From a virus, in the IMG/VR virus record IMGVR_UViG_3300042922_000221, positions 1 to 34,323 of that record: DNA of 34,323 bases. One strand, given 5' to 3'. This document shows positions 15,065 to 33,712 of the stretch, piece by piece (the first letter of the stretch is position 1; each line of letters opens with the position of its first letter). The notes beneath the pieces were generated by a model, which was given only the letters and a program-made list of their open reading frames with translations, had not been told where the DNA came from and ran no database searches. The position numbers and the translations under genes were made by a program.

Positions 15065-15089
15065 ATGTTCAAAATAGGAGGGTTATAGA

Positions 15090-15956: not shown

Positions 15957-16490
15957 ATTTTTGAACCACAGATAGCTTTAATTCTCCATTCATGGAGCCG
16001 AGGAGTTGCAGCAACATTAGAAGCAAAATGGGGGAATTTGAGTGGCATCGACGGTACAGGTAAAGTTCTCGAAGATTCACCATTTGTTCAAAGCGGTAAC
16101 ATTGTTGAGTATATACGATGCGTTGGTGCTCGTGCGTGGATTGGAGAATATGGAGGTGGTTCGGAAGCTGATTTATTGAATCCTTATTTGGACGAATACG
16201 TTAATAATCCTAACTTCAACCATTACCGTAGTAAATCAGACATGACGGTTCGCGGTCGTGACGCTGGCGAGTATCTTGACCTTAACGGAGAAGCCCACGA
16301 ATCTACAGGCAGAGCTGCTGGTAAGGACTTGGAATTAAAGCCAGTATATCAAGGAATGTCGATGCCACCGATGCACATTATCGAAGAAAATATCCAAGCA
16401 TCACTCCCAGATTTGTATGCTAGGCTCAGCGTCGTAATCCCACAGCTCATAGCACAACAACTTGCCATCGATTTCACAGTAACCATATAG
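15957..16490 (+). CDS. Probable tail-completion (gp10/HK97-like) protein (177 aa), ATT start
   Basis: Assigned by position before the tail terminator and by the pattern ALILHSWSRGVAATLEAKW at the N terminus with a C-terminal helix (EENIQASLPDLYARLSVVIP). Start: GGAGG (15944-15948) is 8 nt before ATT 15957, which follows the TAA stop of the HNH gene without a gap. The TTG at 16038 would cut off the conserved-looking N-terminal helix and has only a GGGGGAA purine run, so ATT is preferred. The gene shares the reading frame of the HNH gene upstream. Confidence 0.68.
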   Translation: MFEPQIALILHSWSRGVAATLEAKWGNLSGIDGTGKVLEDSPFVQSGNIVEYIRCVGARAWIGEYGGGSEADLLNPYLDEYVNNPNFNHYRSKSDMTVRGRDAGEYLDLNGEAHESTGRAAGKDLELKPVYQGMSMPPMHIIEENIQASLPDLYARLSVVIPQLIAQQLAIDFTVTI

Positions 16491-18398: not shown

Positions 18399-21300
18399 AT
18401 GGCAGATACAGAGAATCAAATAGTAAATCGCATCGTTGTTACAGGTTTAGATGAGAGTGGTCAGAAGATAAAAACTCTTCAGCAACAATTGAAAGAGCTT
18501 AAAGATGCCAAGGATAGAGCCTTCCAATCCGAAGATAGCCAATCGATGTTCAAAGGCGAAGCAAAAGGTCTTGATGAACTCGGCAAGCTTTACGAAGCTA
18601 AATACAGAGAGCTACAAGAGTTTCAATCAACACTAACTCAAGCAACTGACAAAAGAGCACAGCAAGAAATAGCTATAGCCAATAAAAAGGCACAAGCTGA
18701 AGTAAACTCTGCTGTTAAAGCTTCAGAAGAACTTGACAAAATACACAAAGAAACACTTAGGAAGCAAGCACAAGCCGACAAGCAATCTACTGATGATTTC
18801 CTTAAGTTAGGTAAGGAAACTATTAGGAAACAACAAGAGCAAATCGATGCTCAAACCAAGGAACAAATAAGACAAGTCACTGGAAATCCAGCGCAAGAAA
18901 AGAAAGAGCTTGCAAAGACTGATAGCGTATCTCATGCGAATAAGCAGAGTGATCTTAACGCAGCTTTTGCAATCCCTCCATCATATATGCAGCAAATGAG
19001 TTCATTAAACGATGCTTTTAGAAAGACCTTTACAGAATACAAAAGTGGAGCAATACAACTTGATGAATACGCAAGTAAATTAGCAGGATACAAAAAAGAC
19101 GTTGCTGATATAAATAAATCACAAAAAGATTTTAATTCTGCTATTGGTAACACTAGTAATTCATTAGAAGCATTCTCACAAAGAGTTAAGAGTCATTTGA
19201 CATGGATTGTTGCTGGCGGACTTATTGCCAGTGCTGTAGCTATTCCTGTAGAAGTTACTCAACAACTACGAGAAACTGAGTCATTAACAGCTAAAATTAA
19301 GCAAAACCTCGAATTAGCTCCAAAATATGAAGGTAATATGTCTGGATTGAATGATGATGTTAAACACCTCCAAGACGTTGCTGCTACATTTGCTATGGGT
19401 TATGGGGTTAACCTTAAAGACACAATGGAAATGATGCAAGTTTTATCTCGTCGTTTTAAATCTCCAGAAGAACTAACTTATTACACTAATCTAGCAATGA
19501 CAATGTCAAAGCTTGACTTTGTTGCGCCTAAAAAAGCGGCAGAAGATCTTGAAGCAACAATATTATCTATGGGTTTAAACTTTGATCAATCAAAGAGATT
19601 CATAGACGAATTCTCTGTTGCTGTTCATGTGGCTCGTATTACTGGTACAGAGCTACTTACAGGATTGCAAAGGTCGGCTGCAACATTCCATAACATGAAT
19701 TTTAATACAGCAGAAGCAATAGCAATGATTTCTACACTGACTACGGTAACGGCTAAAGCTGGTGCTAATGTTGGTGCATCATTGAATTCAATACTTATCA
19801 ACATCGACTTTAAAAAGGCTGCCGATGCGCTTAAAGCCTACTCAATACAAGTTTATGATTCTAGCGGTCAGATGCGTGATGGCGTTGAAATTTGGAGAGA
19901 TATTGCTAAAACATTCAATGGGTTAAATACACAAAAAGCCAATGAATTCGCCAACGCAATGAGCGGAGGTAAATTCAGAGCAAATGACCTTAGAGCACTC
20001 ATTGGAAACTGGGAAACGTTTGAAAAAATTCTCACAGATATTAACGAAAAAGCGAGTCCAGAGTTAACAGCAAAATTACTCCAGACGGGTATGGCAACAT
20101 TGGATACCAATATCACTCAATGTACTGCATCATTACAAGTATTTGGTATGACTATTGGTAACGCCACGCTTCCACAGTTAAAGGAAATGGTCAATGGGTT
20201 AACTCAAGGTGTTCAATGGTTGAATCAAAATAAAGAATCTGTATCAGAATGCGTGAAAGGATTAGGTGTATTTGTAGAGGCTTTGGTATTATATAGGGCA
20301 CAGCAAATATTAGCTAGTGGAGCATTAGGTAGATTCATCGAAAATCTATTATTAGAAGCAAAGACAGCACCAACTTTTAATGCAGCCATGAGTGGCATGG
20401 GTGGTGCTGTGATGGGTTTTGCGACAACATTAGGATTAGCTGTGTTAAAAATGGGTGCTTTCTACGCTGCTGCACAATTACTCAACAAGGTTATCGAAGG
20501 TAAGAGTCAAGGTAAAAAAGAGGATGACTTCTTAGCATCTATCCAAAGTAAAGAAACACTGACAGTCGAAGAGCAAGAAGCTCTCGATGCCATTAATTCT
20601 CGTAATGAATATGCTAACCAAAATGCAACATACCAAGGTGAGAATTCACTAACTGGTAAATGGACACTATGGGCAGGATCAAGCGATAGTTTTTGGGACA
20701 AAGATGGAAAAAACTCTGTAGAAAAAGAAGATTACTGGAATAATCTAAACGACCAAGCTTCAAAAGCTGTAGATAAAGTGGTGACAAATAAGTCCCTTGA
20801 TGATGTTAACAAAATGGTTGAAGAAGCTGCAAAGAAACTTCAGGAAAATCCGCCAGCATCACCAAGCCCATATCAAACAATAGAAGGTCAAGACCTTGGC
20901 GGCAACAAAGGTAAAGGCGCAAAGAATCCTCCATCGGATGTCTCAGATAAGCTAGAGCAGAAGGTTGACACTTACAACACCAAATCTACCTTAGATCAAC
21001 AAAAGATCGCCACAGACAACTACAAGGCATCTGTAGACAATCTTACGGATTCAGAGAACCGTCTTGGTAAAACCTATGAATCACTAACACAACGCAGACA
21101 ACTCATGATTGATCATATGGCAACCACACAGCAAACTATCGCCACACTCACAGCTCAAATGCAGGAAGACCTAGGTAAAGTCAATACACTCGCTGATGAA
21201 ACTGGTGCTACAATCACAGTAAACGGTGGTGGTAATAGCCCAGAAGCTACAGCGTTCAGCTACTTGACAAACGCAGGATATAACCCAGAAATGGCAGCAG

Positions 21301-23171
21301 GTATCATTGGTAATCTTATGACCGAATCTGGACTTAACCCTAATGCACAAGCACAGGACGGTTCTGGATCATATGGTATAGGTCAATGGCTAGGCGATAG
21401 AAAACAAGGGTTGTTTGACTTTGCTAATACCAATGGTTCCGATGCTAGTGCCTTAGAAACACAGCTAGCTTACTTGGTTCAAGAAATGAAAACCACTGAG
21501 TCTGGCTCTATGGCTAAAGTCACTGGATCAACTCCAGAGGAATTCGCTTATGCTATATCTAAGTATTACGAACGTCCTGCATGGGCAGAAAACCCAGATA
21601 GACAACAGAATGCCAGAAGTGTATATCAACAGTATCTCGGTGGAGAATTACAAGGTTCTCCACAGCAAGTATCTATAGAGGGTCTCGGAGATACATTGGG
21701 TTCCGCAGGTATCAGCAAGGAAGTTTGGAAAGGTATGTCGGCAGAATCTAAGACAGCTTTCATTGAAGAACATAAGAAAGACGTTAAGGATGCTGGGTTA
21801 CTCATTGGATACCTTAAAGCAATCTCTGATAAACAGAAGGATATTGCTAAACTCCAAAAAGAAATCGCTGATGGCAATAAGAAAGTTTATGAAGAAACTG
21901 TGAATGGTCTTGTGGCTGTTCAAGAATATCAAAACAAAATCAGTGAACTTCGTAAGCGTTCAGCCATTGCAGTATATGGCGTTGGTGTCACGGATGTTCA
22001 GAAAGATCAATCGATACTTGATGACTTAGTTGAGCAGAAAAAGAACTCTGATGAAATGCTTAGACAAGCCAAGAAGTTTGGTATAGATATCTTTAAAGAC
22101 CCTAAGATAAATGAAGAACGTATCAAGAATCTTGAACTAGGGAACTCAATAGATTCGCAGAAGAATAAAGGCATCACAGATCAATATAAAGAAACTGCTG
22201 ATGACATTGAGTATCGTAAGAAAATCAGCGAATACAATATTGGTTCTGATAATACTGTCGATCAAAACCAAAGTAAACGCATAGTAGATATTGATTCAGC
22301 CAGAGAAAAAGTTAAGGCTCTACAGGATGCTATTGATAGACTTAGGGTTCGCAATAATGGTGCTTTCGATACAAAAGAAATCAAGGATTATAACTTACAG
22401 CTCCTTGAGGCTAAAAAGACATATAAGGAATTAGCTGAAGCTCAGAATAAGCAGATCAGAGAAAGCCTTGAAGGCATTACAAACAGTGTTCTACTCCAAG
22501 GCGAGTCCCTTAAGAGCGTCTGGAAGAAGCTATGGAGCGACTTAGCGAATGAAGCGTTAAAAGCATTGTTCCATGTCCAAGACGGCACCCAGAGCACACT
22601 AGGGAAGTTACTAAGCTCATTCAGTGGAAGTAAAGCAACGAATTCTCAATCTGGTAACTTTGCAGGTTTATTAGGTAACACTGATTGGCTAGGAACAAAC
22701 AAAAAATCTACCGCTTCCAGTAACACTGACTGGGGTGGTATGATAGGCAGTGTTTCAAAGCTATTTCATGCCAAAGGTGGCATTGTTGACACCCCTGCAA
22801 TCGCTGGTGAAGATGGTGAGGAAGTCATAGTTCCCGTACAGAATCACACTGGAAACTCAGCGAATCTCATGCAGTACGCAGCGAATAAACTAGGAATGAA
22901 AAACTATGGAGTAACACCAGACTTCAAGAATGCTGACATTGCAACTAAAGCAGCGAATATCACAGTGAACAGCACAGCGCAAATGGCGAAGACCAATTCG
23001 ATATTGGCTACTCAGAATACTATATTGACTACCATGTTGAATCAAATGGCGAACAATAGTGGTAACAATGGGACGGCTGTGGTAGTTGCTGGTGGTGGAC
23101 AACAGAGTCCTACTATGGATGACTTTACGAATATGTATAGTAAAGCTATGGCGATGCGGAATATAAAATAA
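18399..23171 (+). CDS. Tape measure protein with tail-lysozyme domain (1590 aa)
   Basis: Sets tail length and is ejected into the host. Long helical N-terminal coiled coil (about 1-240), hydrophobic segment LTWIVAGGLIASAVAIPVEV (about 266-286), the helical tape-measure core (about 290-560), then a second helical region. At about 945-1085 a phage tail-lysozyme domain is seen (MAAGIIGNLMTESGLNPNAQ, GSYGIGQWLGDRKQGLFDFA, EEFAYAISKYYERP), with the Glu of TESG as likely catalytic residue. Near 1459 is the GGIVDTPAIAGEDGEEVIVP segment common at tape-measure C termini. At 1590 codons it predicts a tail of roughly 240 nm by the usual 1.5 Angstrom per residue rule. AGGGAGGTGAG before ATG 18399. Confidence 0.93.
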   Translation: MADTENQIVNRIVVTGLDESGQKIKTLQQQLKELKDAKDRAFQSEDSQSMFKGEAKGLDELGKLYEAKYRELQEFQSTLTQATDKRAQQEIAIANKKAQAEVNSAVKASEELDKIHKETLRKQAQADKQSTDDFLKLGKETIRKQQEQIDAQTKEQIRQVTGNPAQEKKELAKTDSVSHANKQSDLNAAFAIPPSYMQQMSSLNDAFRKTFTEYKSGAIQLDEYASKLAGYKKDVADINKSQKDFNSAIGNTSNSLEAFSQRVKSHLTWIVAGGLIASAVAIPVEVTQQLRETESLTAKIKQNLELAPKYEGNMSGLNDDVKHLQDVAATFAMGYGVNLKDTMEMMQVLSRRFKSPEELTYYTNLAMTMSKLDFVAPKKAAEDLEATILSMGLNFDQSKRFIDEFSVAVHVARITGTELLTGLQRSAATFHNMNFNTAEAIAMISTLTTVTAKAGANVGASLNSILINIDFKKAADALKAYSIQVYDSSGQMRDGVEIWRDIAKTFNGLNTQKANEFANAMSGGKFRANDLRALIGNWETFEKILTDINEKASPELTAKLLQTGMATLDTNITQCTASLQVFGMTIGNATLPQLKEMVNGLTQGVQWLNQNKESVSECVKGLGVFVEALVLYRAQQILASGALGRFIENLLLEAKTAPTFNAAMSGMGGAVMGFATTLGLAVLKMGAFYAAAQLLNKVIEGKSQGKKEDDFLASIQSKETLTVEEQEALDAINSRNEYANQNATYQGENSLTGKWTLWAGSSDSFWDKDGKNSVEKEDYWNNLNDQASKAVDKVVTNKSLDDVNKMVEEAAKKLQENPPASPSPYQTIEGQDLGGNKGKGAKNPPSDVSDKLEQKVDTYNTKSTLDQQKIATDNYKASVDNLTDSENRLGKTYESLTQRRQLMIDHMATTQQTIATLTAQMQEDLGKVNTLADETGATITVNGGGNSPEATAFSYLTNAGYNPEMAAGIIGNLMTESGLNPNAQAQDGSGSYGIGQWLGDRKQGLFDFANTNGSDASALETQLAYLVQEMKTTESGSMAKVTGSTPEEFAYAISKYYERPAWAENPDRQQNARSVYQQYLGGELQGSPQQVSIEGLGDTLGSAGISKEVWKGMSAESKTAFIEEHKKDVKDAGLLIGYLKAISDKQKDIAKLQKEIADGNKKVYEETVNGLVAVQEYQNKISELRKRSAIAVYGVGVTDVQKDQSILDDLVEQKKNSDEMLRQAKKFGIDIFKDPKINEERIKNLELGNSIDSQKNKGITDQYKETADDIEYRKKISEYNIGSDNTVDQNQSKRIVDIDSAREKVKALQDAIDRLRVRNNGAFDTKEIKDYNLQLLEAKKTYKELAEAQNKQIRESLEGITNSVLLQGESLKSVWKKLWSDLANEALKALFHVQDGTQSTLGKLLSSFSGSKATNSQSGNFAGLLGNTDWLGTNKKSTASSNTDWGGMIGSVSKLFHAKGGIVDTPAIAGEDGEEVIVPVQNHTGNSANLMQYAANKLGMKNYGVTPDFKNADIATKAANITVNSTAQMAKTNSILATQNTILTTMLNQMANNSGNNGTAVVVAGGGQQSPTMDDFTNMYSKAMAMRNIK

Positions 23172-23178
23172 AAGAAAA

Positions 23179-23210
23179 ATCGAAGGTGTCCTATAATGGA
23201 TGCCTTCGAT
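23179..23210. terminator. Hairpin acting best as a leftward terminator
   Basis: ATCGAAGG (23179-23186) pairs with CCTTCGAT (23203-23210). On the plus strand there is no T-run, but on the minus strand TTTTTCTTTT follows, so it would stop leftward transcripts before they enter the tape measure gene. Confidence 0.6.
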
Positions 23211-23246: not shown

Positions 23247-23459
23247 GTGATAAAAATGACTAAAGAACAAGCAATTGAAAGAACAGAATCCATCGGAATT
23301 GGCAGAGGTAAATACACAGAGGAAGCGATAGAGGAAATACGTGTGCGCTATGCTATGCGTGAATCTCATATTATCCAGTCGCTAAAAACTGCTATTTATG
23401 AAGCCGAAACCAAAGCCGAAAAAGATAAGGCAATCGAAGAACTTGCTAAATATCTTTAG
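23247..23459 (+). CDS. Unknown helical protein (70 aa)
   Basis: Charged, entirely helical protein (AIERTESIGIGRGKYTEEAIEE, ESHIIQSLKTAIYEAETKAEKD). The Glu/Lys pattern suggests a coiled coil. SD AAAGGAATGTG before ATG 23247. It converges with the minus-strand gene ending at 23446, overlapping by 14 nt. Function unknown. Confidence 0.55.
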   Translation: MIKMTKEQAIERTESIGIGRGKYTEEAIEEIRVRYAMRESHIIQSLKTAIYEAETKAEKDKAIEELAKYL

Positions 23460-23700
23460 AAATTAATTTTTGAATATCATCGTTAATTTTCTTATTGTTA
23501 GCATCGATTAAGTCGGCTAGCATCTGAGGAACAATAGTATCTATGTACCAAAGGAAGAATTGCTCAATATACTTTATTGATCCATTACCAAATTGTGCTA
23601 TTAGTGAATTCCTTTCTTGGGTATATAACTGCTCATATTTGGTTCCATTTAGCTCATCCAGCTTTCCTAAAACTTCATCCCTCGTGAATCCAATAATCAT
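23446..23700 (-). CDS. Unknown acidic protein (84 aa), leftward
   Basis: Helical, moderately acidic protein (DEVLGKLDELNGTKYEQLY, EQFFLWYIDTIVPQMLADLIDANN). The hydrophobic FFLWYIDTIV stretch is too short and mixed for a sure membrane anchor. AGGAGG SD directly upstream of the start at 23700 and a possible promoter at 23727-23754. Transcribed opposite to the tail genes as part of the regulatory cassette. Confidence 0.6.
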   Translation of the reverse strand: MIIGFTRDEVLGKLDELNGTKYEQLYTQERNSLIAQFGNGSIKYIEQFFLWYIDTIVPQMLADLIDANNKKINDDIQKLISKDI

Positions 23701-23726
23701 TTGTAAAACCTCCTGCTATTTTTAGT

Positions 23727-23754
23727 ATATTATGGTAGTTCGACAGGAGGTAAA
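23727..23754 (-). promoter_or_regulatory. Possible leftward promoter
   Basis: On the minus strand TTTACC (23749-23754), a 16-nt spacer, and TAATAT (23727-23732). It could drive the gene at 23446-23700 independently of the upstream terminator at 23791-23810. Confidence 0.35.
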
Positions 23755-23773
23755 GTTTTCCTGCAAATATTTA

Positions 23774-23810
23774 CAAAAAAATAAACAAAAGAGAGCCTTA
23801 GTTGGCTCTC
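23774..23810 (-). terminator. Intrinsic terminator of the leftward operon
   Basis: GAGAGCC (23791-23797) pairs with GGCTCTC (23804-23810). On the minus strand it is followed by TTTTGTTTATTTTTTT. The stem spans the stop codon of the gene at 23798-24046. Confidence 0.8.
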
Positions 23811-24046
23811 TTGATTTCTTTATGGCAATGCTTACAAATTGTTGCTTCTGACTGTATTAGCTCAGCACAGAAAGGACATTGTTTCTTTTTGCTTATCCAT
23901 AATGAATGAATAAAAGCGACAGGGAATAAAATGAGCCCATACAATAGCCACTTGCGAAAATTTCTTCCTTTATAATCTGCAATAAGTGCAGATATAAGAG
24001 CAATTACCGCTGGAATTAAAAGATATGATGTAGATATATTGACCAT
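23798..24046 (-). CDS. Membrane protein with C-terminal zinc ribbon (82 aa)
   Basis: Two hydrophobic segments: about residues 6-24 (SYLLIPAVIALISALIADY) and about 33-50 (KWLLYGLILFPVAFIHSLW). A zinc ribbon follows, CPFC (about 57-60) and CKHC (about 72-75), then a basic end. This plan, a membrane hairpin plus zinc ribbon, is widespread in small bacterial proteins of unknown role. In a lysogenic cassette it could act in exclusion, but that is speculation. The SD GGGAGG and start lie just downstream of the RHH gene, so both belong to one leftward operon. Confidence 0.65.
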   Translation of the reverse strand: MVNISTSYLLIPAVIALISALIADYKGRNFRKWLLYGLILFPVAFIHSLWISKKKQCPFCAELIQSEATICKHCHKEIKRAN

Positions 24047-24061
24047 GATGTTATCCTCCCT

Positions 24062-24214
24062 TTATCCTGGTTTGATATCGAATTCTTTCTTCAATATTAC
24101 AGCAATCATATTACTGATTGTTCTTTGTTCATTTTTTGCTTTAATCTCTAATTCTTTATATAAATCTGTTGGTAATGTTATAGAAAACCTTTTACTGTTT
24201 TGTGAAATAGTCAC
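24062..24214 (-). CDS. Ribbon-helix-helix repressor (Arc/Mnt-like, 50 aa), GTG start
   Basis: Short leftward gene starting at GTG 24214 with a GAGGTGAGG SD. The protein SKRFSITLPTDLYKELEIKA (strand then helix A) followed by NEQRTISNMIAVILKKEF (helix B) is the classic RHH pattern: a beta strand that enters the major groove, then two helices. Length 50 aa matches Arc (53 aa). Its divergent promoter region (24215-24380) carries three 11-bp tandem repeats, a fitting operator. It stands back to back with genes including a P22-type antirepressor, as in P22 immI. It was missed by an ORF search cut at 60 aa. Confidence 0.8.
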   Translation of the reverse strand: MTISQNSKRFSITLPTDLYKELEIKAKNEQRTISNMIAVILKKEFDIKPG

Positions 24215-24228
24215 TCGTCCTCACCTCT

Positions 24229-24245
24229 GTGTTTTAGTGTAACAC
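24229..24245. repeat. Inverted repeat in the RHH leader
   Basis: GTGTT (24229-24233) and AACAC (24241-24245) separated by 7 bp, just downstream of the leftward start region. A possible operator half-site pair or leader hairpin. Confidence 0.4.
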
Positions 24246-24246
24246 C

Positions 24247-24276
24247 ATTGTATCATAAATATTCACTCGTGTGTAA
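24247..24276 (-). promoter_or_regulatory. Leftward promoter for the RHH operon
   Basis: On the minus strand TTACAC (24271-24276), an 18-nt spacer, and TACAAT (24247-24252) with a TGA extension upstream (TGATACAAT). It reads toward the repressor gene. Confidence 0.55.
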
Positions 24277-24307
24277 AAATATGATAAAAATATGATAAAA
24301 ATATATT
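24275..24307. repeat. Three 11-bp tandem repeats, likely RHH operator
   Basis: AAAAATATGAT at 24275-24285 and 24286-24296, then AAAAATATATT at 24297-24307. An 11-bp spacing puts copies on one DNA face, as RHH dimers binding cooperatively require. It lies between the two divergent promoters and overlaps the -35 of both. Confidence 0.7.
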
Positions 24308-24334
24308 GACACAAATAATCCATAGTGTTATTAT
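24306..24334 (+). promoter_or_regulatory. Rightward promoter of the antirepressor arm
   Basis: TTGACA (24306-24311), 17-nt spacer, TATTAT (24329-24334). The perfect -35 touches the end of the tandem repeats, so RHH binding would block it. Confidence 0.75.
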
Positions 24335-24380
24335 TGATTACAGGTGATGCACCTTAAATAACACATAGGAGGAACAAAAA

Positions 24381-24608
24381 ATGGTAAGAGTAATTTTCAA
24401 CGAACTAAACAATGGACAATCCGTGACAAGCAAGGAAATACTTCATGGACAAACAGTGGAGCTTCTCAAGCTAATCAAAGAGGTAGATGATGTTTATATT
24501 GAAGACAACCAATATAAATACAATGCTTCTTCATTAAAACTAGCGACTTACGCTAATGAGATTGATACACTGTCGGTCTACATGGAAGTACCAGAGGATG
24601 AACAATAA
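24381..24608 (+). CDS. Unknown acidic protein (75 aa)
   Basis: First rightward gene of the cassette, with AGGAGG before ATG 24381. Alpha/beta composition (VRVIFNELNNGQ, VELLKLIKEVDDVYIEDNQYKY, an acidic C terminus EVPEDEQ). No family recognised. By position it corresponds to a small helper or regulator expressed with the antirepressor. A separate promoter follows before the antirepressor. Confidence 0.55.
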   Translation: MVRVIFNELNNGQSVTSKEILHGQTVELLKLIKEVDDVYIEDNQYKYNASSLKLATYANEIDTLSVYMEVPEDEQ

Positions 24609-24619
24609 AAAATAAAGTG

Positions 24620-24649
24620 TTGACATTCGTATACAAATGAGTATACAAT
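24620..24649 (+). promoter_or_regulatory. Antirepressor promoter with GTATAC operator pair
   Basis: TTGACA (24620-24625), 18-nt spacer, TACAAT (24644-24649). Two copies of the palindrome GTATAC (24629-24634 and 24641-24646), 12 bp apart, lie in the spacer and over the -10, so a repressor bound there would silence it. Confidence 0.65.
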
Positions 24650-24695
24650 AAAGGCACAGGGACAACCTGAAATAAATTTAAAGGGAGACGAAAGA

Positions 24696-25484
24696 ATGGA
24701 CAAGGGTAAACTGGAGATTAAAAAGGTAAATTTTATGGGTGATGAACTGGTGGCAATTCGGGAGAATGACAGTGGAAAGATTTATGCTGGAGTAAGATGG
24801 TTATGTGATGGATTGGCATTAACTGAGAATCAGAGAATTCATCAAACTACTAAGATTCACGGGGATAGGGTGTTATCTAAAGGGGTAAGGAAAATCTTAC
24901 TCCCTACTAAAGGTGGAGAGCAAGAGGTTGTATGTTTGGAGTTAAAGATGGTCACTCTTTGGTTGGCTAAAATTAACGCTAATGTTGTTAAAGATATTGA
25001 AACACAAGAAAAACTTGTTGAATATCAATTGCACGCGGCTGATGTCCTGGCAGACGAATTCTTACCGCATAATCTTATTCAACAAGCAACTAAAGATATT
25101 ATAGCACAAATACCTAAATCTGTGTCAGAATTATTTAGAATGTTAGCAGATAAAACTGAAGAAAACGATGAACTCAAACCTAAAGCTCAAGCATTCGATA
25201 AATTCATTGAAGCAACCAATGTTCAAACATGGTTACAAGTAGCAAAAGTTTTAGGTACTGGCAGAACTCGTCTATGTAAATTACTAAGACAACAAGAAAT
25301 ACTTATGAGTGACAATGTTCCATATCAACAATACATTGATAGAGGATACTTTGTCACAAAGGAAATCACAGCATACGATGGAATTACAGCGTTCAACTAT
25401 ACACAAACATTAGTCACAGCGAAAGGCATTGATTTTATATTCAAGTTATTGAATGAAATCAATGTTATAGCAAAAGCAAACTAA
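24696..25484 (+). CDS. P22-type phage antirepressor with KilAC domain (262 aa)
   Basis: The N-terminal about 120 residues match the P22 Ant-type domain: MGDELVAIRENDSGKIYAGV, the LPTKGGEQEVVCLEL segment, and TLWLAKINANVVK, then QEKLVEYQLHAADVLADEF. After a helical linker (ELFRMLADKTEENDELKPKAQ) the C-terminal domain (about 165-262) has the ANT/KilAC pattern VQTWLQVAKVLGTGRTRLCKLLRQQ and ITAYDGITAFNYTQTLVTAKG. Such proteins inactivate phage repressors, causing induction. Own promoter at 24620 and terminator at 25537. Its placement inside the tail module, next to an RHH repressor, resembles P22 immI. Confidence 0.87.
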   Translation: MDKGKLEIKKVNFMGDELVAIRENDSGKIYAGVRWLCDGLALTENQRIHQTTKIHGDRVLSKGVRKILLPTKGGEQEVVCLELKMVTLWLAKINANVVKDIETQEKLVEYQLHAADVLADEFLPHNLIQQATKDIIAQIPKSVSELFRMLADKTEENDELKPKAQAFDKFIEATNVQTWLQVAKVLGTGRTRLCKLLRQQEILMSDNVPYQQYIDRGYFVTKEITAYDGITAFNYTQTLVTAKGIDFIFKLLNEINVIAKAN

Positions 25485-25536
25485 GGTAATCATGTGGGAA
25501 AATCCCGCTCGACAATAATTTTATATTGGTAATCTA

Positions 25537-25564
25537 AGGGGTGAAATAATTTTCACTCCTTTTT
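25537..25564 (+). terminator. Strong intrinsic terminator after the antirepressor
   Basis: A ten-pair stem, AGGGGTGAAA (25537-25546) with TTTCACTCCT (25551-25560, one wobble), 4-nt loop, then TTTTT. The tail-peptidase leader follows immediately. Confidence 0.9.
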
Positions 25565-25589: not shown

Positions 25590-26012
25590 ATGGAAGATAT
25601 ATCAAAATACATCGGAATCCCGCATATATTCGCTGAATGGTCATTAGAAGGCTGTGATTGTGTTGGGTTAGTTCGAAGATTTTACGTTGATCATCATTGG
25701 AAGCCCGATTGTGATGATGGTGAATTTGCAGAGGATTGGTACATCACTGATCCACGGAAGATGATAAGGTATCTCAGGAAAAACTTTAATAAAGTTAAAG
25801 ACATAGCAGATTTATCCTTTGGGGATGTCTGCTATTTTTTGATTGGCGGAGAGGGACATTGTGGTATTTACCTCGGATACGGCAAGTTATTAACAACATT
25901 TCCCAGTACGGCACCACAATGGAATAACACAGTCCTCCCAGATGTATCCATGATACTTCATCGTGATGTCTGGGAGCAAGGTTATCGTTGCGGATTTCAT
26001 AGAAAGGAGTGA
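25590..26012 (+). CDS. NlpC/P60-type tail peptidase (lambda gpK-like, 140 aa)
   Basis: Catalytic Cys in GCDCVGLVRRF (about residues 22-32) and His in GEGHCGIYLGYG (about 88-99), the NlpC/P60 layout. It cleaves peptidoglycan stem peptides at the tail tip during DNA entry. SD GGAGGTGAAC before ATG 25590, preceded by the same TATGTCCAAAAAC leader type as the HNH genes. Ends in a double stop (TGATGA), with the next gene in the same frame starting at ATC 26019. Confidence 0.82.
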   Translation: MEDISKYIGIPHIFAEWSLEGCDCVGLVRRFYVDHHWKPDCDDGEFAEDWYITDPRKMIRYLRKNFNKVKDIADLSFGDVCYFLIGGEGHCGIYLGYGKLLTTFPSTAPQWNNTVLPDVSMILHRDVWEQGYRCGFHRKE

Positions 26013-26018: not shown

Positions 26019-26390
26019 ATCGATACATTTACATGGCGACCTCTTGTAGGAGATGGTATCAAACCTAATAATACAGCATTAAATACTAGAGTTGAATTTA
26101 TAAACAACAACGTACAAATCCAGCGTAATGCAGTAAATGATAAGGAAACATGGACATTACCTTATGGTGGGATTGCTGATACCTTAGTTGAAATACGTGC
26201 ATTCAATAAGGCTCACAATAGCGGTCAAAAGTTCTATTGGACACCACCAAAGCCATATGACACACAGGGTATATGGATATTCAACGATGACTCATTCGAA
26301 CCCAAGACCCAATACAGCTTAGGCAGTGACGGAATAGGAATTATCCAAGGATTCACTGTAGACCTCACGTTCAGGCGGTGCTACCAATGA
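26019..26390 (+). CDS. Minor tail protein (lambda gpM-like, 123 aa), ATC start
   Basis: Long open frame without any nearby ATG/GTG/TTG: after AGGAG (26005-26009) the in-frame sequence is TGA-CAT-ATC, then 123 codons of plainly coding sequence, for example FTWRPLVGDGIKPNNTALNT and QKFYWTPPKPYDTQGIW, ending GFTVDLTFRR. Position between NlpC and the gpL-like gene and the FYWTPP...TFRR pattern suggest the gpM family. The TGA at 26388 overlaps ATG 26387 of the next gene. Spacing of 9 nt from SD to ATC matches the other near-cognate starts. Confidence 0.72.
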   Translation: MDTFTWRPLVGDGIKPNNTALNTRVEFINNNVQIQRNAVNDKETWTLPYGGIADTLVEIRAFNKAHNSGQKFYWTPPKPYDTQGIWIFNDDSFEPKTQYSLGSDGIGIIQGFTVDLTFRRCYQ

Positions 26391-27214
26391 TAGTACTACC
26401 GTCACAACTACAGGATACCAAAGACAATTCATCGGTTCACTTTATTGATCTCTATGTTATCCATATGGTAACTGGGGATCTTTTTATGTGTGCAAACGAT
26501 GTTGATATCCCTTGGTATATTCCATATACATCCACACCAGCTCTCTATGCTGCTCAACCGATTAAACGTGGGACACTCTCGCAGAGCACTGACGACAAGA
26601 TCGATAATATGTCCATTGAGATATCTAATGTAACTCGTCAGTTCTCCTCAGCGTTGTTCCAGAGCTTTGACTTTAGAGGTACTAAGGTAGATGTCATACA
26701 GATTGCTTATCCAGTTTCCATAGGAGTACCAGGGGCATTCAAGCATGTATTCCGTGGTTACATTGATACTCCAGGGCTTAACGAGAAAGAGGGAACATTC
26801 ACAGCTACAATAATGCAGGAAATTCCCAATATGAAATCATGTAGATCATTGATGCTCACGTGTAATGCATGGTTTGGCGATGCAGAAGAATGTGGAGCAC
26901 AGGTAACAACAATGAATAACTCCGTAGGAGTCGGTAGTACACAGAACATCATCTATCACGCTAATGATTATACACAGCCAGACTACTTTAAATCTGGGAC
27001 ATGCTCAATTGGTTATGAGAGCAAGAAGATAATCGCTAGTACATCCACTAGTATTACCGTAGAATATCCATTCTTTACTGTGCCAGCTACAGGATTAGCT
27101 GTGAATTATGTCAATGGATGCGATAGGACACATCCTGATTGTATCCGACATAACAACTCACAGAACTTCAGCGGATTTCTCTCGGTTCCGTTTGAGTTTG
27201 CAATCCGCAGTTGA
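26387..27214 (+). CDS. Minor tail protein (lambda gpL / DUF2163-like, 275 aa)
   Basis: Tail-tip hub component. The C-terminal third carries a cysteine set, C175/C183-type CNAWFGDAEECGAQ, a later GTCS, and GCDRTHPDCIRHNNSQNFSGF, matching the BR0599/DUF2163 C-terminal motif; lambda gpL binds an Fe-S cluster there. Start ATG 26387 (ATGA overlap) is preferred to the GTG at 26378, 3 codons upstream. The next feature is the GIY-YIG insertion, so the hub gene and J are separated. Confidence 0.8.
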   Translation: MIVLPSQLQDTKDNSSVHFIDLYVIHMVTGDLFMCANDVDIPWYIPYTSTPALYAAQPIKRGTLSQSTDDKIDNMSIEISNVTRQFSSALFQSFDFRGTKVDVIQIAYPVSIGVPGAFKHVFRGYIDTPGLNEKEGTFTATIMQEIPNMKSCRSLMLTCNAWFGDAEECGAQVTTMNNSVGVGSTQNIIYHANDYTQPDYFKSGTCSIGYESKKIIASTSTSITVEYPFFTVPATGLAVNYVNGCDRTHPDCIRHNNSQNFSGFLSVPFEFAIRS

Positions 27215-27226
27215 GGAGGTAATTAT

Positions 27227-28162
27227 TTGATTGGTATTTATTGTATAACCAATAATGTTAATAACAAGAAATATATAGGGCAAAGCATTAGTGTTAGTGA
27301 GAGATGGATAGTGCATTTATGCTATCTTAGGCATGGAAAACATTGTAATCTACATTTGCAACATGCATGGGATAAGTATGGCGAGAAAAACTTTACATTT
27401 AGTATTATTGAAGAGTGCGACAGAGACAGCTTAGATAACAAGGAAATATCATGGATAAAAGAACTCAATACTAATAATGGAAATTTTGGATATAACGGGA
27501 CGGCTGGCGGTGGAGCGTTAAGAGGTAAAGACAACCCTTTTTATGGGAAGAAGCATACTGAAGAAACTAAGAAAATATTAAGTAAAAAGCATAAAGGTAA
27601 AAAGTTGTCTAAAGAAACTATCAATAAAATAGTTGAGTCTAAAAAAGGAAAGTTTTGTGGAGAAAATAGTTCATCTCCTAAAATAACTGAAGCCCAAGCT
27701 AAAGAAATTATAAAATTGCTTTTAGATAAAACACCAATGATAGATATCTCAAATTATTTAACTATTAATTATAACATTATCAAAGCAATTAAACAGCATA
27801 GGAATTGGAAACATCTCACAAATGGTATTGAGTTTCCAAATATTAAAAAGGACAAACATGGAGCTAATAATCGATGGGGCGTAAAACTTTCACAAGATAC
27901 TAAAACGAAAATAGGTGATAGCCATAGGGGTAAGAAATTATCTGAAGAACATAAGAAAAAACTCAAAGAAAGTAGTAAACATCTTAGTGGTGAGGACTGC
28001 CCTAACTCAAAAATAACTCAAGAGTGCGCGATAAAAATAATTGATATGTTAAATTCGCATATGAGAATAGTTGATATATCTAAGGAACTAGATGTGTCTA
28101 GAGGTACTATCTGTGCAATAAAAAGTGGTAACACGTGGAAATATCTACCGAGAGCTTCATAG
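27227..28162 (+). CDS. GIY-YIG homing endonuclease with NUMOD-type repeats (311 aa), TTG start
   Basis: The N-terminal domain has both core strands, GIYCITN and KKYIGQS (the GIY and YIG motifs), then RWIVHL and a conserved Glu region near DNKEISWIKEL. After a GKDNPFYGKKHTEETKK stretch there are repeated NUMOD3-type words (HTEETKKILSKKHKGKKLS; LSEEHKKKLKESSKHLSG), then HTH-like repeats (ISKELDVSRGTICAIKSG). TTG 27227 is 7 nt after GGAGG. It breaks the tail-tip gene series right before the J-like gene, whose start is ATC. Mobile selfish element. Confidence 0.88.
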   Translation: MIGIYCITNNVNNKKYIGQSISVSERWIVHLCYLRHGKHCNLHLQHAWDKYGEKNFTFSIIEECDRDSLDNKEISWIKELNTNNGNFGYNGTAGGGALRGKDNPFYGKKHTEETKKILSKKHKGKKLSKETINKIVESKKGKFCGENSSSPKITEAQAKEIIKLLLDKTPMIDISNYLTINYNIIKAIKQHRNWKHLTNGIEFPNIKKDKHGANNRWGVKLSQDTKTKIGDSHRGKKLSEEHKKKLKESSKHLSGEDCPNSKITQECAIKIIDMLNSHMRIVDISKELDVSRGTICAIKSGNTWKYLPRAS

Positions 28163-28177: not shown

Positions 28178-31100
28178 ATCTCTAAATCTACAGGAAAAAA
28201 AATAGCATCACTCATAGGATTTGGTCTTGGGTTCGCTAATCCAGCAATGTTTGGCTTAGGTACAGCAGTGTGGTCAGGTGGTATCTATGGAGCTTCATTG
28301 TTTGGCAACATATGGTCAATGACACACAAGGAAAAACAAGCAGCTCAAACTTATGACTTTGATGTAATACAAAACAACAGGTCATCCGAAGCAATGATAC
28401 CAATCATCTACGGCACTCGTAAATGGGGTGGCTATCAAACATGGCATGAAGCATCTACGGATAAGCAAACGCTAACTAAAGATGTTGTAATGTGCGAAGG
28501 TGAAATCACTAGGTTAACTGAGCTGAAAGCCAATGATCTCTGGATACAAACAGAAACTAAGACAACAACGGTTAATCTGTTCACTATTACTGTAAGCGAT
28601 GATGTAGAGTGGGTCAAAATACAAAAATCTGATCCAGGTATTTGTTCTATTCAAATAAAGTATTATTCACTCACATATTGGCAAGAAGTACGGGTTCCAG
28701 GGGTTGGTTATAGGTCTATAGTTACTGAAGATATAGTCTACGCTTTAAACCAAGCACCTAATAAAGTAAATCCGAGACAACATGGAATTATCGCAACCAC
28801 TTTAAACAATGTAAAAATTAATGAAATTCCATATACTATAATTAACCACAATACCACCCATACAGTAACACAAGTTGTTACCACAGTCACTCAACAGGGT
28901 CTTCCTGGTTGTTCCGTAGAAACTCACAACGGTTCTCCTTGGCAAGCACCACCGTCAAACTATAATACTGTTGGTGGCTATAAAAACTGTGCATGGCTCA
29001 GAGCTACACTAAAGTCATCTGATAAACTCCAAGGATCAGATCCAACAATTACAGCGGTAATCCAAGGAATGAAAGTGTACGATACACGCACAGGAGCCAA
29101 AGCTTATTCTGAGAACCCAGCAATGTGTCTCCGTGATTACATCCTTAGTAAACGCTATGGGCTTGGTCGTTGGGTTACTTCTGATATGCTCGATGAGGAC
29201 TCCTTTAAAGAATGTGCTGACCAGTGCGATGGCGAAGTCCACTTCTACACACCGACAACACTAGCAACCTACGATGCTGTACAGAATAAAATCACAGACC
29301 TCCAACGGCAACTAACGTTAAACCCAGGATGGTCATCGAAAACCGTCGATGCAGTTAATGATGAAATCACAGCTCTCCAGAAATCCCTTATCACAATCCA
29401 AAGTCAACCAGTGAGTCAAACCATAGCTATTACTCCGCGATACTCCTGTAATTTAATACTCGCTGACAAAACAAACCACATTGATAACCTTGAGACAATC
29501 ATGGCTACCTTTGGTGGTTTTTTAGTTTACAATGGCAAGAAAATTAGTCTTCGCATGGAGAAGCAAGAAGTAGTATCTTATGCATTCAATGATAGTAACA
29601 TATGTTCTGCCGATGGTAAACCAGATATAGTATGGGAAACAACGTCACTCGCTGAGACTCCTAATAGATATATCATTACTTTCTACGATCCAAACAATAA
29701 TTGGACAGGGGTTAAATGTCAGGTAAACGATGTAGCAGACCAGAAGTTCCGTGGAAGAATCATTGAAAAAGAAGTGTCATTAGATGGCGTAACAAACCAA
29801 AGTCAGGCATTGAGACTCGGTAGAATATTCATGGCTAAAAACAGGCTTAACACGAGGATATGCACATTCAAAACTGGAACACATGCTATGCATCTACAAC
29901 CTGGAGATGTCATCAGTTTTACTCATGAAGAAGTCAGTAATATGCCACTTAGAATTCTACAGATGTCTGAAGAGCAAGGTAAGTTTACCATTAAAGCTCA
30001 AGAGTATAACATCAGCATTTATGATGATCGCTTAGGTTCTCAAATAACAACCAAGAATTACTGTACGATACCTAACGCATTTACCGATACAATACCAGAA
30101 GTTACAGCGATTGCACTCGATCAAGACTATTATATTCAGAAGGATGGCACAGCAATATCAACGATTACGGGTGTATGTACTCTTCCGAACTACCCATTTA
30201 CTAGGATTATCCATATATATTCATCGACTAACAACGGCACCACATGGAACTATTGCTCGTCAACGACTACTGGTGAATTTACACTGCATAGTATCCTTGT
30301 AAATCAAACGTATTACATTAAAGCAATCGTTGAGAACACCGCAGGTCGCAAATCCAATGGTTTCATAAGTAACCCATTGTTCATCACTGGTAAGGACAAG
30401 AATCCATCGGATGTCCCCGATTTTGTTGTGGCTCAATTTGGACACCAGTTTGTGCTCCAAGGCAAGATTCCATCGGATGTAGACTTTAATCATATCGAAG
30501 TTAGAGTCGACGGTACATCATGGGAAACATCAAAATATCTTGCTACGGATATCACTAGTTTTCCAACGTATATATCCAATAGTGGAATCATTGATGGAAC
30601 TCATGTATTCCGTGCGAAGGCAGTGGATAATGGTGGTAATTACTCAACGAATGACATTGAGTATATATTAAATGTCACTGATATTAACACGTACAAGAAC
30701 ATTATACTCACCAGGGATGACGTGTTGCTCGGTGGTGGAACACTTACAGGGTTAACAGTGCTTCCCAATGGTCAGTTTGTATCATCTAATTCAATCACTT
30801 ATGGCGACTTTGAAACCTATGCCGACTACCCAGAAACTTATGGGGCTGACCAAACAAGCATTGGATATCTATCGCCAGTCATTGATACATTCAAAGTTGG
30901 AAAAACTAATGTAAACTTTTGTTTTGACTTCGATTTCTATGTGGACAATCCAACATACGGCACGTTAGGCGATAGGACTTATGGCGATTATCCAAATGAC
31001 ACTTATGGACATATCACAGAACCAGTGGATATTACTATTGAAATACGATTGTCAGACGATGGAAACACATGGAGTGTTTGGCAAACCTATGTATCGGCAC

Positions 31101-31432
31101 AGTACAACTTTAGATATATCCAATATAGAATCACAGCTAATTACGAAGATACAGCCACAAGAGCAACAATAAAATCCCTACTGCAATACTATGATGTCCC
31201 AGATGCCACCTATAGTCAAACATTAAGCATTCCAGCGACAGGAATTAATGTTGATTACGGTGGTATTTTCTATGAGACACCAACACAAATAACCCCTACA
31301 GTTATCAATGGATCAGGCAATGTTTATCCTGATATAACCAATTCAACTGCGAGTGGGCTTCATATTGATTGTTATGACCGTACAGGTACAAAGGTTGCTG
31401 GTACGGTTCTTTTAGTTTGCAAAGGATATTGA
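28178..31432 (+). CDS. Tail tip attachment protein J-like (1084 aa), ATC start
   Basis: Central fibre of the tail tip. The N terminus has a hydrophobic, Gly-rich stretch (KKIASLIGFGLGFANPAM...GLGTAVWSGGIYGASLFG) like lambda gpI, then the hub region with AMIPIIYGTRKWGG. Later: NPAMCLRDYILSKRYGLGRW, NLILADKTNHIDNLETIMATFGGFL, ETPNRYIITFYDPNNNW, typical of J. FN3-like repeats follow (about 640-830), then a TYG-rich C terminus. Start: GGAGG (28166-28170) is 7 nt before ATC 28178. The in-frame TAG at 28160 and absence of ATG/GTG/TTG before 28247 exclude other starts with an SD. Starting at ATG 28247 would drop 23 residues and lack an SD. Confidence 0.85.
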   Translation: MSKSTGKKIASLIGFGLGFANPAMFGLGTAVWSGGIYGASLFGNIWSMTHKEKQAAQTYDFDVIQNNRSSEAMIPIIYGTRKWGGYQTWHEASTDKQTLTKDVVMCEGEITRLTELKANDLWIQTETKTTTVNLFTITVSDDVEWVKIQKSDPGICSIQIKYYSLTYWQEVRVPGVGYRSIVTEDIVYALNQAPNKVNPRQHGIIATTLNNVKINEIPYTIINHNTTHTVTQVVTTVTQQGLPGCSVETHNGSPWQAPPSNYNTVGGYKNCAWLRATLKSSDKLQGSDPTITAVIQGMKVYDTRTGAKAYSENPAMCLRDYILSKRYGLGRWVTSDMLDEDSFKECADQCDGEVHFYTPTTLATYDAVQNKITDLQRQLTLNPGWSSKTVDAVNDEITALQKSLITIQSQPVSQTIAITPRYSCNLILADKTNHIDNLETIMATFGGFLVYNGKKISLRMEKQEVVSYAFNDSNICSADGKPDIVWETTSLAETPNRYIITFYDPNNNWTGVKCQVNDVADQKFRGRIIEKEVSLDGVTNQSQALRLGRIFMAKNRLNTRICTFKTGTHAMHLQPGDVISFTHEEVSNMPLRILQMSEEQGKFTIKAQEYNISIYDDRLGSQITTKNYCTIPNAFTDTIPEVTAIALDQDYYIQKDGTAISTITGVCTLPNYPFTRIIHIYSSTNNGTTWNYCSSTTTGEFTLHSILVNQTYYIKAIVENTAGRKSNGFISNPLFITGKDKNPSDVPDFVVAQFGHQFVLQGKIPSDVDFNHIEVRVDGTSWETSKYLATDITSFPTYISNSGIIDGTHVFRAKAVDNGGNYSTNDIEYILNVTDINTYKNIILTRDDVLLGGGTLTGLTVLPNGQFVSSNSITYGDFETYADYPETYGADQTSIGYLSPVIDTFKVGKTNVNFCFDFDFYVDNPTYGTLGDRTYGDYPNDTYGHITEPVDITIEIRLSDDGNTWSVWQTYVSAQYNFRYIQYRITANYEDTATRATIKSLLQYYDVPDATYSQTLSIPATGINVDYGGIFYETPTQITPTVINGSGNVYPDITNSTASGLHIDCYDRTGTKVAGTVLLVCKGY

Positions 31433-31454
31433 CCATTGTGTAAGCGATGGTTTT
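31433..31454 (+). terminator. Weak hairpin between tail tip and fibre genes
   Basis: Five-pair stem (ACCAT/ATGGT, 10-nt loop) followed by TTTTA. Marginal as a terminator. Confidence 0.3.
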
Positions 31455-31475
31455 ACGAAGTAAAGGAGGAATATA

Positions 31476-32855
31476 ATGTCACAAATATTTACTAGTGCAA
31501 TACCAACTACTGAAACCAATGTCAAAGACGATAATATTAATAGTAGAGTCAACGAGAACACACTGCGGTCTAGCTTCAGTGGCACATCGTTTCCAGATAA
31601 TCCAGTTCTAGGACAACCATGTTATCGCGAGGATATGAATGGTAGATTATATAAATGGAATGGGACAACATGGGTTGATGCTGATACTAACTCAGCTACA
31701 CAAAAGGATGTAGCATTATCCGCAGGAAATCTAACGACACTCAAAGATAGGCTTGCAGTATCAATGAATGATGATGGTACACTCAAAGCAAGTCCAACGG
31801 CTGTAATCGATGAATTCAAAGACAATGCTTTAGCTATCACTTACGTGTCCACTAATTCATTTACGACACCTAATGATCTCACTAGTACATTCACACAGTA
31901 TCGCAAGGTAAAGTGTGTACTTAGTGCATCGTATGTAGTCACTAGCGTTACTGCAAGCACCTATGACAGTGGCACTAATAAAACCACAGTTACTCTTAAA
32001 GATTCTGTGATTGATGCTACGATTACTGAGGTTAAATATGGAGTTATACAAGATGGGTTACCAGAGAATGTACTAACGTCTGGTACTAATTCAACCATTG
32101 GGACAGCCAATATAACGACGTTAAATATGTCTGGTGCAATTAACCAAGCTCTTACAACGATGGCTAGTGCATCTACAATGAGCATTGGTGCTGCTCCTGC
32201 AAATTATATTATCGTCACAGGTACAACTACAATAACAGCATTTGACTCAATTACCGCAGGTGCAGTAAGAACGCTTAGATTTAGCGATACTGTAACAGTG
32301 ACCTATAATGCAACTACAATGTTATTACCAGGGGCTACAAATATTGTTGCATATGCTGGTGATGTATTAACCTTCGTTAGCGGTGGTAGTGGAATCTGGC
32401 GCTGTACTGATATTCAAAGATATAAAACGTTCAGAGGAGTAAAAGTTTATAACAATAGCGGTGGTACTCAAAGTATAGCGACTACAGCAACGACGAAAAT
32501 AATATTTAATATTACTGAATTTGATACTGATTCATTTTGGAACCCATCTACAACAAGGATCGAAATCCCAGCAGGGGTATCTTATGTAAAATTAGTTGGT
32601 ATAGTATCGTGGATTGACGCCTATACAACGGAAGGTACGAGGCGTGGAGGATGGCTATATAAAAATGGGTCTTTGTTAGTACCTTCTTCTTGTGCCGCTG
32701 GATCACCAAACTGCCATAATAACGTAAGTAGTGGCGCTGTTCCTGTTACCTCGGGAGACTATTTTGAACTTTACGCGGTTAATGGTGATACTATAGCAAA
32801 GAATATATCTCAAAGCCCAGTTAACACATCGTTAACAATGGAGGTAATCGCATAA
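31476..32855 (+). CDS. Tail fibre / receptor-binding protein (459 aa)
   Basis: The N-terminal part contains a carbohydrate-type insert word (CYREDMNGRLYKWNGTTWVDAD), then a coiled-coil-like section. The middle is Ser/Thr/Ala-rich and beta-stranded (ITTLNMSGAINQALTTMASAS, TMSIGAAPANYIIVTG), like a fibre shaft. The last about 150 residues (FRGVKVYNNSGGTQSIA, IEIPAGVSYVKLVGIVSWID, GDYFELYAVNGDTI) resemble a C1q/TNF-type jelly-roll head. SD AAAGGAGG before ATG 31476. The stop overlaps the following start (TAATG). Placement after J supports the role. Confidence 0.72.
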   Translation: MSQIFTSAIPTTETNVKDDNINSRVNENTLRSSFSGTSFPDNPVLGQPCYREDMNGRLYKWNGTTWVDADTNSATQKDVALSAGNLTTLKDRLAVSMNDDGTLKASPTAVIDEFKDNALAITYVSTNSFTTPNDLTSTFTQYRKVKCVLSASYVVTSVTASTYDSGTNKTTVTLKDSVIDATITEVKYGVIQDGLPENVLTSGTNSTIGTANITTLNMSGAINQALTTMASASTMSIGAAPANYIIVTGTTTITAFDSITAGAVRTLRFSDTVTVTYNATTMLLPGATNIVAYAGDVLTFVSGGSGIWRCTDIQRYKTFRGVKVYNNSGGTQSIATTATTKIIFNITEFDTDSFWNPSTTRIEIPAGVSYVKLVGIVSWIDAYTTEGTRRGGWLYKNGSLLVPSSCAAGSPNCHNNVSSGAVPVTSGDYFELYAVNGDTIAKNISQSPVNTSLTMEVIA

Positions 32856-33208
32856 TGACAACATTAACTTTCACAGGAACTAAATACCAATATCTCCACG
32901 ATATCCTAGTAAAAGCAGGATACCCGCCAACATCAGTGTTCGTTAATGGTACAACCTATACGGTGAACTTTGAAACTCAAGCTATCGCTGATGCAGCAAT
33001 GATTATCGCAGATGCTCAATGTACAGCAATGGATAAACACGTGAGAAAAGCTGCGGTAGATGAGAAATACAACGCTATCTATATTAACCTTGATCGTTCA
33101 TTTGCAGCAGCGAATAGACTTGGAAATCCAACGACTCATCTAGTGGAAAAGAGCGCTGAATTACTGGCAGCACATAAAGCAGAAAAGGTGGCGATTGACA
33201 ATGAATAA
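32855..33208 (+). CDS. Unknown protein after the fibre (117 aa), possible fibre partner
   Basis: Overlaps the fibre stop by one base (TAATG) so is translated with it. N-terminal beta part (LTFTGTKYQYLHDILVKAGY, FVNGTTYTVNFET), C-terminal helix rich in Ala/Lys (EKSAELLAAHKAEKVAI). Small genes here often encode fibre chaperones; that is by analogy only. Overlaps the next gene by 8 nt. Confidence 0.5.
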   Translation: MTTLTFTGTKYQYLHDILVKAGYPPTSVFVNGTTYTVNFETQAIADAAMIIADAQCTAMDKHVRKAAVDEKYNAIYINLDRSFAAANRLGNPTTHLVEKSAELLAAHKAEKVAIDNE

Positions 33209-33326
33209 CTTTGATTTTGCATGTGAATACTGTGGAGCACTGATTGACCAAACGACAGGATTATGTACAAACCCTAATTGCCCAGGAAGTATCAAGTCTC
33301 AAAACACTAACACAACCGAGGGGTAA
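33201..33326 (+). CDS. Zinc-knuckle microprotein (41 aa)
   Basis: Starts at ATG 33201 overlapping the previous gene. CEYCG (residues 7-11) and CTNPNCPG (about 22-29) form a compact C-x2-C / C-x4-C zinc site. No other domain. Too short for ordinary ORF tables. It opens the row of small genes leading to the lysin. Confidence 0.55.
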   Translation: MNNFDFACEYCGALIDQTTGLCTNPNCPGSIKSQNTNTTEG

Positions 33327-33328
33327 CT

Positions 33329-33445: not shown

Positions 33446-33455
33446 GGAGATGTAG

Positions 33456-33704: not shown

Positions 33705-33712
33705 GGTGAATA

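Follow-up and report, generated by a model that had tools for sequence, protein, structure and literature searches.

Why would a phage keep an immunity switch among its tail genes? The immI region of phage P22, an immunity switch amid late genes, is a long-standing textbook oddity, and a comparable locus lies between the tape measure and NlpC/P60 genes of the 34,323-base record IMGVR_UViG_3300042922_000221 (hereafter the window, meaning that whole stretch), which belongs to one uncultured temperate phage of ~75 kb. A preliminary description had called it a P22 immI-like regulatory cassette embedded in the tail module. We propose that it is a mobile, immI-like antirepressor cassette seated in a variable slot, that the antirepressor gene ant would be controlled both by a local ribbon-helix-helix (RHH) protein and by a phage-wide repressor, and that Ant would feed back on its own expression; we put the probability of this reading as a whole at roughly 0.6. 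Three observations are new: the slot is variable, the pair formed by Ant and a 75-residue protein (p75) recurs in another phage beside an XRE-type gene, and the ant promoter holds one of 17 copies of a dyad. The cassette and its borders comprise the following genes.

18399–23171, plus strand: tape measure protein gene, a 1590-amino-acid open reading frame (ORF) at the left border of the slot; homologues hold the same position in the relatives L003, L099 and L100
23247–23459, plus strand: 70-amino-acid ORF at the left edge of the insert; no family match
23446–23700, minus strand: 84-amino-acid ORF (p84), past a bidirectional terminator; no family match
23798–24046, minus strand: membrane and zinc-ribbon protein of 82 amino acids (phrog_8436, 7.5e-21; Zn_ribbon_3, 1.8e-4), downstream of the RHH gene
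24062–24214, minus strand: RHH protein of 50 amino acids (RHH_5, PF07878, 2.2e-13; PHROG 'Arc-like repressor', 4e-6), in the position of Mnt
24381–24608, plus strand: p75, in the position of Arc; a homologue adjoins ant in phage G001 (phmmer 8.4e-5)
24696–25484, plus strand: antirepressor Ant of 262 amino acids (P22_AR_N, PF10547, 2.3e-22; C-terminal KilAC/ANT, PF03374, 4.2e-25)
25590–26012, plus strand: NlpC/P60 tail protein gene (NLPC_P60, 8.7e-6) at the right border of the slot

All five reading frames named in the preliminary description appear in the ORF listing at the coordinates it gave, and the Pfam matches and ORFs bear out its picture of a leftward RHH gene divergent from the 75-residue gene and the antirepressor, between the tape measure and NlpC genes.

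Is the cassette a visitor at this site? We compared the slot in four phages, the relatives having been found through neighboring tail proteins. The slot is empty in L099, where the tape measure gene shares a few bases with the NlpC gene; this also rejects the idea that an ordinary cluster of tail genes had been mistaken for a cassette. L003 holds one leftward gene with a lipoprotein-like product. L100 holds a leftward gene similar in type to that of L003, an HTH_17 protein whose 12/12 promoter is covered by a palindrome, a Bro-N antirepressor-like protein, and a 57-amino-acid gene. Each of the three occupied slots (the window, L003, and L100) has a terminator immediately ahead of NlpC, the empty one has none, and guanine-plus-cytosine content is 30–36% across the window insert against 38–45% in its flanks. 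Because the relatives carry empty, lipoprotein-like, and Bro-N versions, and because of the terminator pattern and the drop in guanine-plus-cytosine content, the slot is, on the evidence of its sequence, a variable site where self-contained cassettes enter the late region. Two of its three known inserts are antirepressor switches, built of unrelated proteins.

The wider setting of the switch comes from a second record, G002 (72,676 bases), which represents the same phage but starts and stops at different points: window positions 28662–34323 are its first 5,662 bases, window positions 1–25763 form its last part, and identity is 99.99–100% over the compared stretches. The two records may share a sample of origin and do not count as independent. 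G002 supplies the early region, with an integrase (L009:13586-14785), three XRE-type genes (L009:12505-13104, 15005-15343, and 16255-16449), and a second antirepressor with Rha and KilAC domains (L009:16554-17315). Because of this integrase, the XRE-type genes, and the second antirepressor, the phage is, by its gene content, temperate, with two antirepressor loci. At the second locus (L009:16255-17315), which the preliminary description had missed, a 64-amino-acid XRE gene diverges from the Rha-KilAC gene, with repeats of its own, GGACATAA..GTCC, around the promoter. The phage had been described as a Firmicutes phage, which is plausible given that the best Ant matches are in Psychrobacillus and Bacillus; a scan of genome contigs with the tail protein found no host. 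The phage collection holds no close isolate, the BR0599-type tail protein, the RHH protein, and the XRE protein all being without a match there, and the best terminase matches in the isolate-phage search are ~33% identical.

What might control ant? The regulatory features of the cassette are these.

24306–24334, plus strand: promoter of p75-ant, TTGACA-17-TATTAT with TG; 11/12 consensus bases
24620–24649, plus strand: second promoter, directly upstream of ant, TTGACA-18-TACAAT; 11/12 consensus bases
24629–24646, no strand assigned: candidate phage-wide dyad operator, GTATACAAATGAGTATAC, inside the ant promoter
24247–24275, minus strand: RHH gene promoter with extended −10, TACACA-17-TACAAT with TG
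24237–24364, no strand assigned: candidate RHH operator region, with GTGTWA at 24237, 24240 (minus), 24271, 24325, and 24359 (minus), and TATSATA at 24251, 24280, and 24291
23179–23210, plus strand: terminator-like hairpin after the tape measure gene, 13 pairs and a T-rich tail
23789–23812, both strands: bidirectional terminator-like hairpin, 9 pairs
25536–25561, plus strand: terminator-like hairpin directly before NlpC, from the terminator scan

The cassette had been credited with its own promoters, terminators, and operators. The promoters at 24306 and 24620 are present and stand out above weaker matches, the total count of promoter-like sites being that expected by chance, and all three terminators are present as well (terminator-like sites number 4 against 0.9 expected). 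The operators fared unevenly: the ant promoter contains a clear dyad that the preliminary description lacked, whereas the two types of repeat near the RHH promoter (three copies of TATSATA and five of GTGTWA) are weak after correction. LexA control of ant was also considered and rejected, as the scanned pieces contain no exact GAACNNNNGTTC box.

The dyad in the ant promoter is one copy of an 18-base-pair element, GTNNACNNATNNGTNNAC, which matrix and plain consensus scans place at 17 positions in 75.6 kb of this phage.

Window: 3109, 5907, and 24629
L009: 6863, 7094, 9090, and 15525
L010: 1411, 6168, 9111, 14314, 14643, 18140, 18829, and 19892
L011: 6190 and 6538
3109–3126 of the window, no strand assigned: copy 18 bases upstream of the start codon of a 212-amino-acid gene at 3144
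5907–5924 of the window, no strand assigned: copy with perfectly palindromic halves, GTCTAC/GTAGAC

Within the window, three copies were observed against 0.02 expected; three relatives (~192 kb) contain no copy of GTNNACNNATNNGTNNAC, and no comparable dispersed dyad is evident in G004, G005, or G001. Five dyads (window 24629; L009 6863 and 15525; L010 6168; L011 6538, on the minus strand) have TTGACA at an identical distance. Of these five, one adjoins the early repressor and another is at ant, and this pair of promoters shares a common design: TTGACA is followed, after 3 bases, by GTATAC-NN-AT-NN-GTATAC, which extends over the −10. When 2.9 million viral contigs were scanned for exact matches, the promoter-operator pattern came up in five places, all of them in this phage. 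The remaining 12 dyads lack a TTGACA at that spacing, and many of them lie 18–26 bases before start codons; these non-promoter copies stand mostly just ahead of the ribosome-binding sites of rightward genes, including dnaE, without a −35. Directly downstream of one dyad is a gene (L009:7130-7342) whose 70-amino-acid product consists of the MCPsignal chemotaxis signaling hairpin alone (7.6e-14), and this protein could be a decoy for the host chemotaxis kinase complex.

We read the dyad set as the putative signature of a phage-specific repressor regulon. Repressor-type sites are repeated in promoters and between genes in cluster A mycobacteriophages (PMC6550527) and in SP-beta (PMC10516654), and P1 combines operators dispersed across the phage with antirepressors (PMC8546580); by analogy, the non-promoter dyads are possible stoperators. 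The candidate binder, by its position, is the XRE protein encoded at L009:15005-15343. Because the ant promoter carries a dyad that is found phage-wide, in a pattern unique to this phage, ant is probably controlled by a phage-wide repressor in addition to the local RHH protein and would thus form a two-input switch.

The pair formed by p75 and Ant is not confined to this phage. In G001, a 181-amino-acid antirepressor, which has a KilAC domain and a weak P22_AR_N match and is divergent from an XRE gene, is immediately preceded by a 73-amino-acid protein homologous to p75 (phmmer 8.4e-5, 29% identity). The shared promoter region contains two inverted repeats, TAGAAGTAAAAC(A/T)TCTA, and the cassette (L095:7736-8849) lies near packaging genes and not in the tail slot. 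Because p75-Ant recurs there with an XRE gene, the pair seems to travel as a unit whose divergent regulator is exchangeable, XRE in G001 and RHH in the window. G001 also encodes a Bro-N domain fused to an HNH endonuclease domain (L095:11619-12626). Relatives of Ant were found in three bacterial genomes only, and 8 members of a set of 398 genomes, taken from the phylum to which Bacillus sp. T33-2 belongs, carry P22_AR_N. Several antirepressors in the Ant-bearing genomes lie near XRE genes.

What can be said of the individual proteins? The KilAC domain (PF03374) of Ant is C-terminal, after the regulatory N-domain, and scores 88.6 bits against a cut-off of 25.3. The RHH protein is a candidate local repressor; its assignment to a toxin-antitoxin system was rejected, there being no recognizable toxin partner and no PADLOC match. 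Neither p75 nor p84 matches a Pfam family. The predicted fold of p75 is beta-rich, with one of five models confident, and when this model was used in fold searches, nothing informative matched in the PDB and the matches obtained were weak ones to phage proteins without names. Homology of p75 to Arc was rejected, with no RHH match by Pfam, PHROG, or predicted fold. The N-terminal half of the 82-residue protein is hydrophobic and its zinc ribbon match is weak; another small membrane and zinc-ribbon protein of the same general type is encoded at L009:7515-7742. Since its gene lies beyond the bidirectional terminator at 23789–23812, p84 is probably expressed from its own transcription unit. The preliminary description supposed that the 82-residue protein and p84 may act in exclusion; neither has a defense-family match.

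How would such a switch work? In the lysogen, the RHH protein would repress the leftward promoter of its own gene together with the 24306 promoter of p75-ant, while the phage-wide repressor, for which the XRE protein beside the early promoter (L009:15525) is the candidate, would repress the 24620 promoter through the dyad at 24629–24646. On entry into a cell without these repressors, or on failure of the master repressor, Ant would be made. It would then inactivate a repressor belonging either to its own phage or to a resident prophage, or act on both. Because ant carries the master operator, inactivation of the master repressor would raise ant expression further, a positive feedback that would commit the cell to lysis.

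Several points weigh against this scheme. The genes, domains, promoters, dyad set, and slot with its alternative contents can be read directly from the DNA, whereas the pairing of proteins with sites, the target of Ant, and the feedback are our deductions. The XRE protein is matched to the dyad by position only, and the promoter region of its own gene has no dyad except at the divergent early promoter. After correction for motif choice, clusters like that of GTGTWA occur in 3 of 142 AT-rich phage segments (~1 in 50), which leaves the RHH operator less than clear-cut. The name antirepressor is given to KilAC proteins mainly on grounds of homology, and p75 would have a part for which the proposed switch does not account. 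Finally, no RHH_5 gene lies beside ant in the neighborhoods L112, L114, L117, and L118 or in the other Ant-bearing genomes and viral records searched, and the RHH-Ant pair was seen only in the window phage and the near-identical G002.

Could the cassette instead act on its own account? The RHH protein might be its sole control, with Ant directed at the repressors of other resident prophages as an anti-immunity function in superinfection and the main repressor of its own phage left untouched. P22 Ant acts on repressors of P22 and of heterologous lambdoid phages. The cassette has its own RHH gene and promoter, and in the L100 phage no further copy was found of the local palindromic operator that serves the slot antirepressor. 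In the window phage, however, the second ant promoter bears the phage-wide dyad in a geometry identical to that of the early promoter, which ties ant to the regulon of its own phage, and we regard a wholly autonomous switch as unlikely.

The dyad could also be an activator site or a phage-specific element of middle or late promoters, ant being a lytic-phase gene switched on by an activator. This would suit the 12 of 17 dyads without a TTGACA at the set spacing, many of them 18–26 bases before rightward start codons, that of dnaE included. Yet the other five lie where a repressor site is usually placed, filling the spacer and extending over the −10 of near-perfect sigma-70 promoters, which do not require an activator, and the non-promoter copies between genes resemble stoperators (PMC6550527); we consider an activator quite improbable. 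Least probable of all is that the leftward unit (the RHH and membrane zinc-ribbon genes, with p84 nearby) is a moron for lysogenic conversion or exclusion and p75-ant its chance neighbor, for although leftward genes with membrane or secretion signals occupy the same slot in L003 and L100, P22 sieA holds the equivalent position, and a similar zinc-ribbon membrane protein is encoded elsewhere in the phage (L009:7515-7742), the RHH gene is divergent from p75-ant and shares its intergenic control region, p75-ant recurs with a divergent regulator in G001, two unrelated antirepressor cassettes occupy this single slot, and neither leftward gene (that of the 82-residue protein or p84) has a defense-family match.

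Returning to the mobile, doubly controlled cassette, what would it mean? The immI layout is built here from unrelated parts in another lineage, and the same slot of a relative holds a different antirepressor cassette; for these two reasons we suggest that the placement is selected and not accidental. More tentatively, and at slightly less than even odds, we suggest that tail-module second-immunity regions evolved more than once, that this slot has repeatedly captured non-homologous antirepressor switches (RHH with P22AR-KilAC, HTH_17 with Bro-N), and that the window switch was rewired into a new 17-site dyad regulon as a two-input device with positive feedback. Through the dyad operator set, this control logic becomes open to direct testing from the sequence.

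The tail region around the slot offered further observations. An open frame at window positions 26022–26390, homologous to the 113-amino-acid Phage_min_tail protein of L003, was missed by the listing of ORFs with ATG, GTG, or TTG starts. A GIY-YIG/NUMOD3 endonuclease gene (window 27227–28162) lies between two tail genes and is absent from L002 (~83–90% identical), whose alignment jumps from window position 27204 to 28156; in L099, a GIY-YIG gene lies between two tape measure pieces.

How does the locus compare with known systems? The annotated P22 record reads sieA (minus), orf59a (minus), mnt (minus), arc (plus), ant (plus), and terminator, between gene 16 and the tailspike gene 9. The window has the same order, with p84 (minus), zinc ribbon (minus), RHH (minus), p75 (plus), Ant (plus), and terminator between the tape measure and NlpC genes. 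Both are variable slots within the late or tail region, with a leftward membrane gene past the RHH gene and a terminator after ant. The earlier label of a P22 Ant-type protein with KilAC is half right: the N-terminal domain family, P22_AR_N, is common to both proteins, but the C-terminus is KilAC (PF03374) in the window and P22_AR_C (PF10548) in P22. Likewise, the window RHH protein is of the RHH_5/CopG-like family (PF07878) and not the Arc family (PF03869), and by BLASTP it has no similarity to Arc and none that is meaningful to Mnt, the fold class alone being common. With p75, which is not an RHH protein, in place of Arc, the window has no second RHH protein ahead of ant. As for a counterpart of the sar antisense RNA, which in P22 lies between arc and ant, the promoter scan listed no leftward promoter-like site at 24600–24800 of the window. 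The window ant has a second promoter with the phage-wide dyad. Thus the likeness noted earlier holds for the self-contained switch, the gene-by-gene layout, and the variable slot, and not for descent: because the RHH protein is not of the Arc (or Mnt) family, p75 is not an RHH protein, and the C-terminal domain of Ant differs, the window cassette, judged by its sequence, would work like immI but is not P22 immI by descent. The combination of RHH with P22AR-KilAC in a tail module was seen only in the window phage.

Other systems share single elements of the arrangement. The G001 cassette of XRE, p73, and short Ant has the same small gene with an antirepressor and a divergent DNA-binding gene, but XRE replaces RHH, the site is near packaging genes, and the inverted-repeat operator is its own. 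In the Clostridioides difficile phage phiCDKH01, the main XRE repressor was shown to silence KilAC antirepressor promoters (PMC11172241); there the antirepressor genes adjoin the repressor in the early region, whereas the window phage has one ant in the tail module, accompanied by a local RHH gene. The cluster A mycobacteriophages likewise repeat their sites in promoters and between genes (PMC6550527), but their stoperators are asymmetric 13-mers, and the SPBRE of SP-beta is a 15-base-pair site bound by the recombinase-like repressor MrpR (PMC10516654), whereas the dyad of the window phage is symmetric and 18 base pairs long. P1, in which C1 has 22 dispersed operators and immI consists of c4-icd-ant, shares with the window phage operators dispersed phage-wide, an antirepressor locus as a second immunity region (PMC8546580), and a KilAC family in common through KilA. 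It differs in that its operators are asymmetric 17-mers, its ant is under an antisense RNA and not an RHH protein, and its prophage is a plasmid, whereas the window phage encodes an integrase. Even so, the putative two-input wiring of the window ant would be closer to that of P1 than to that of P22.

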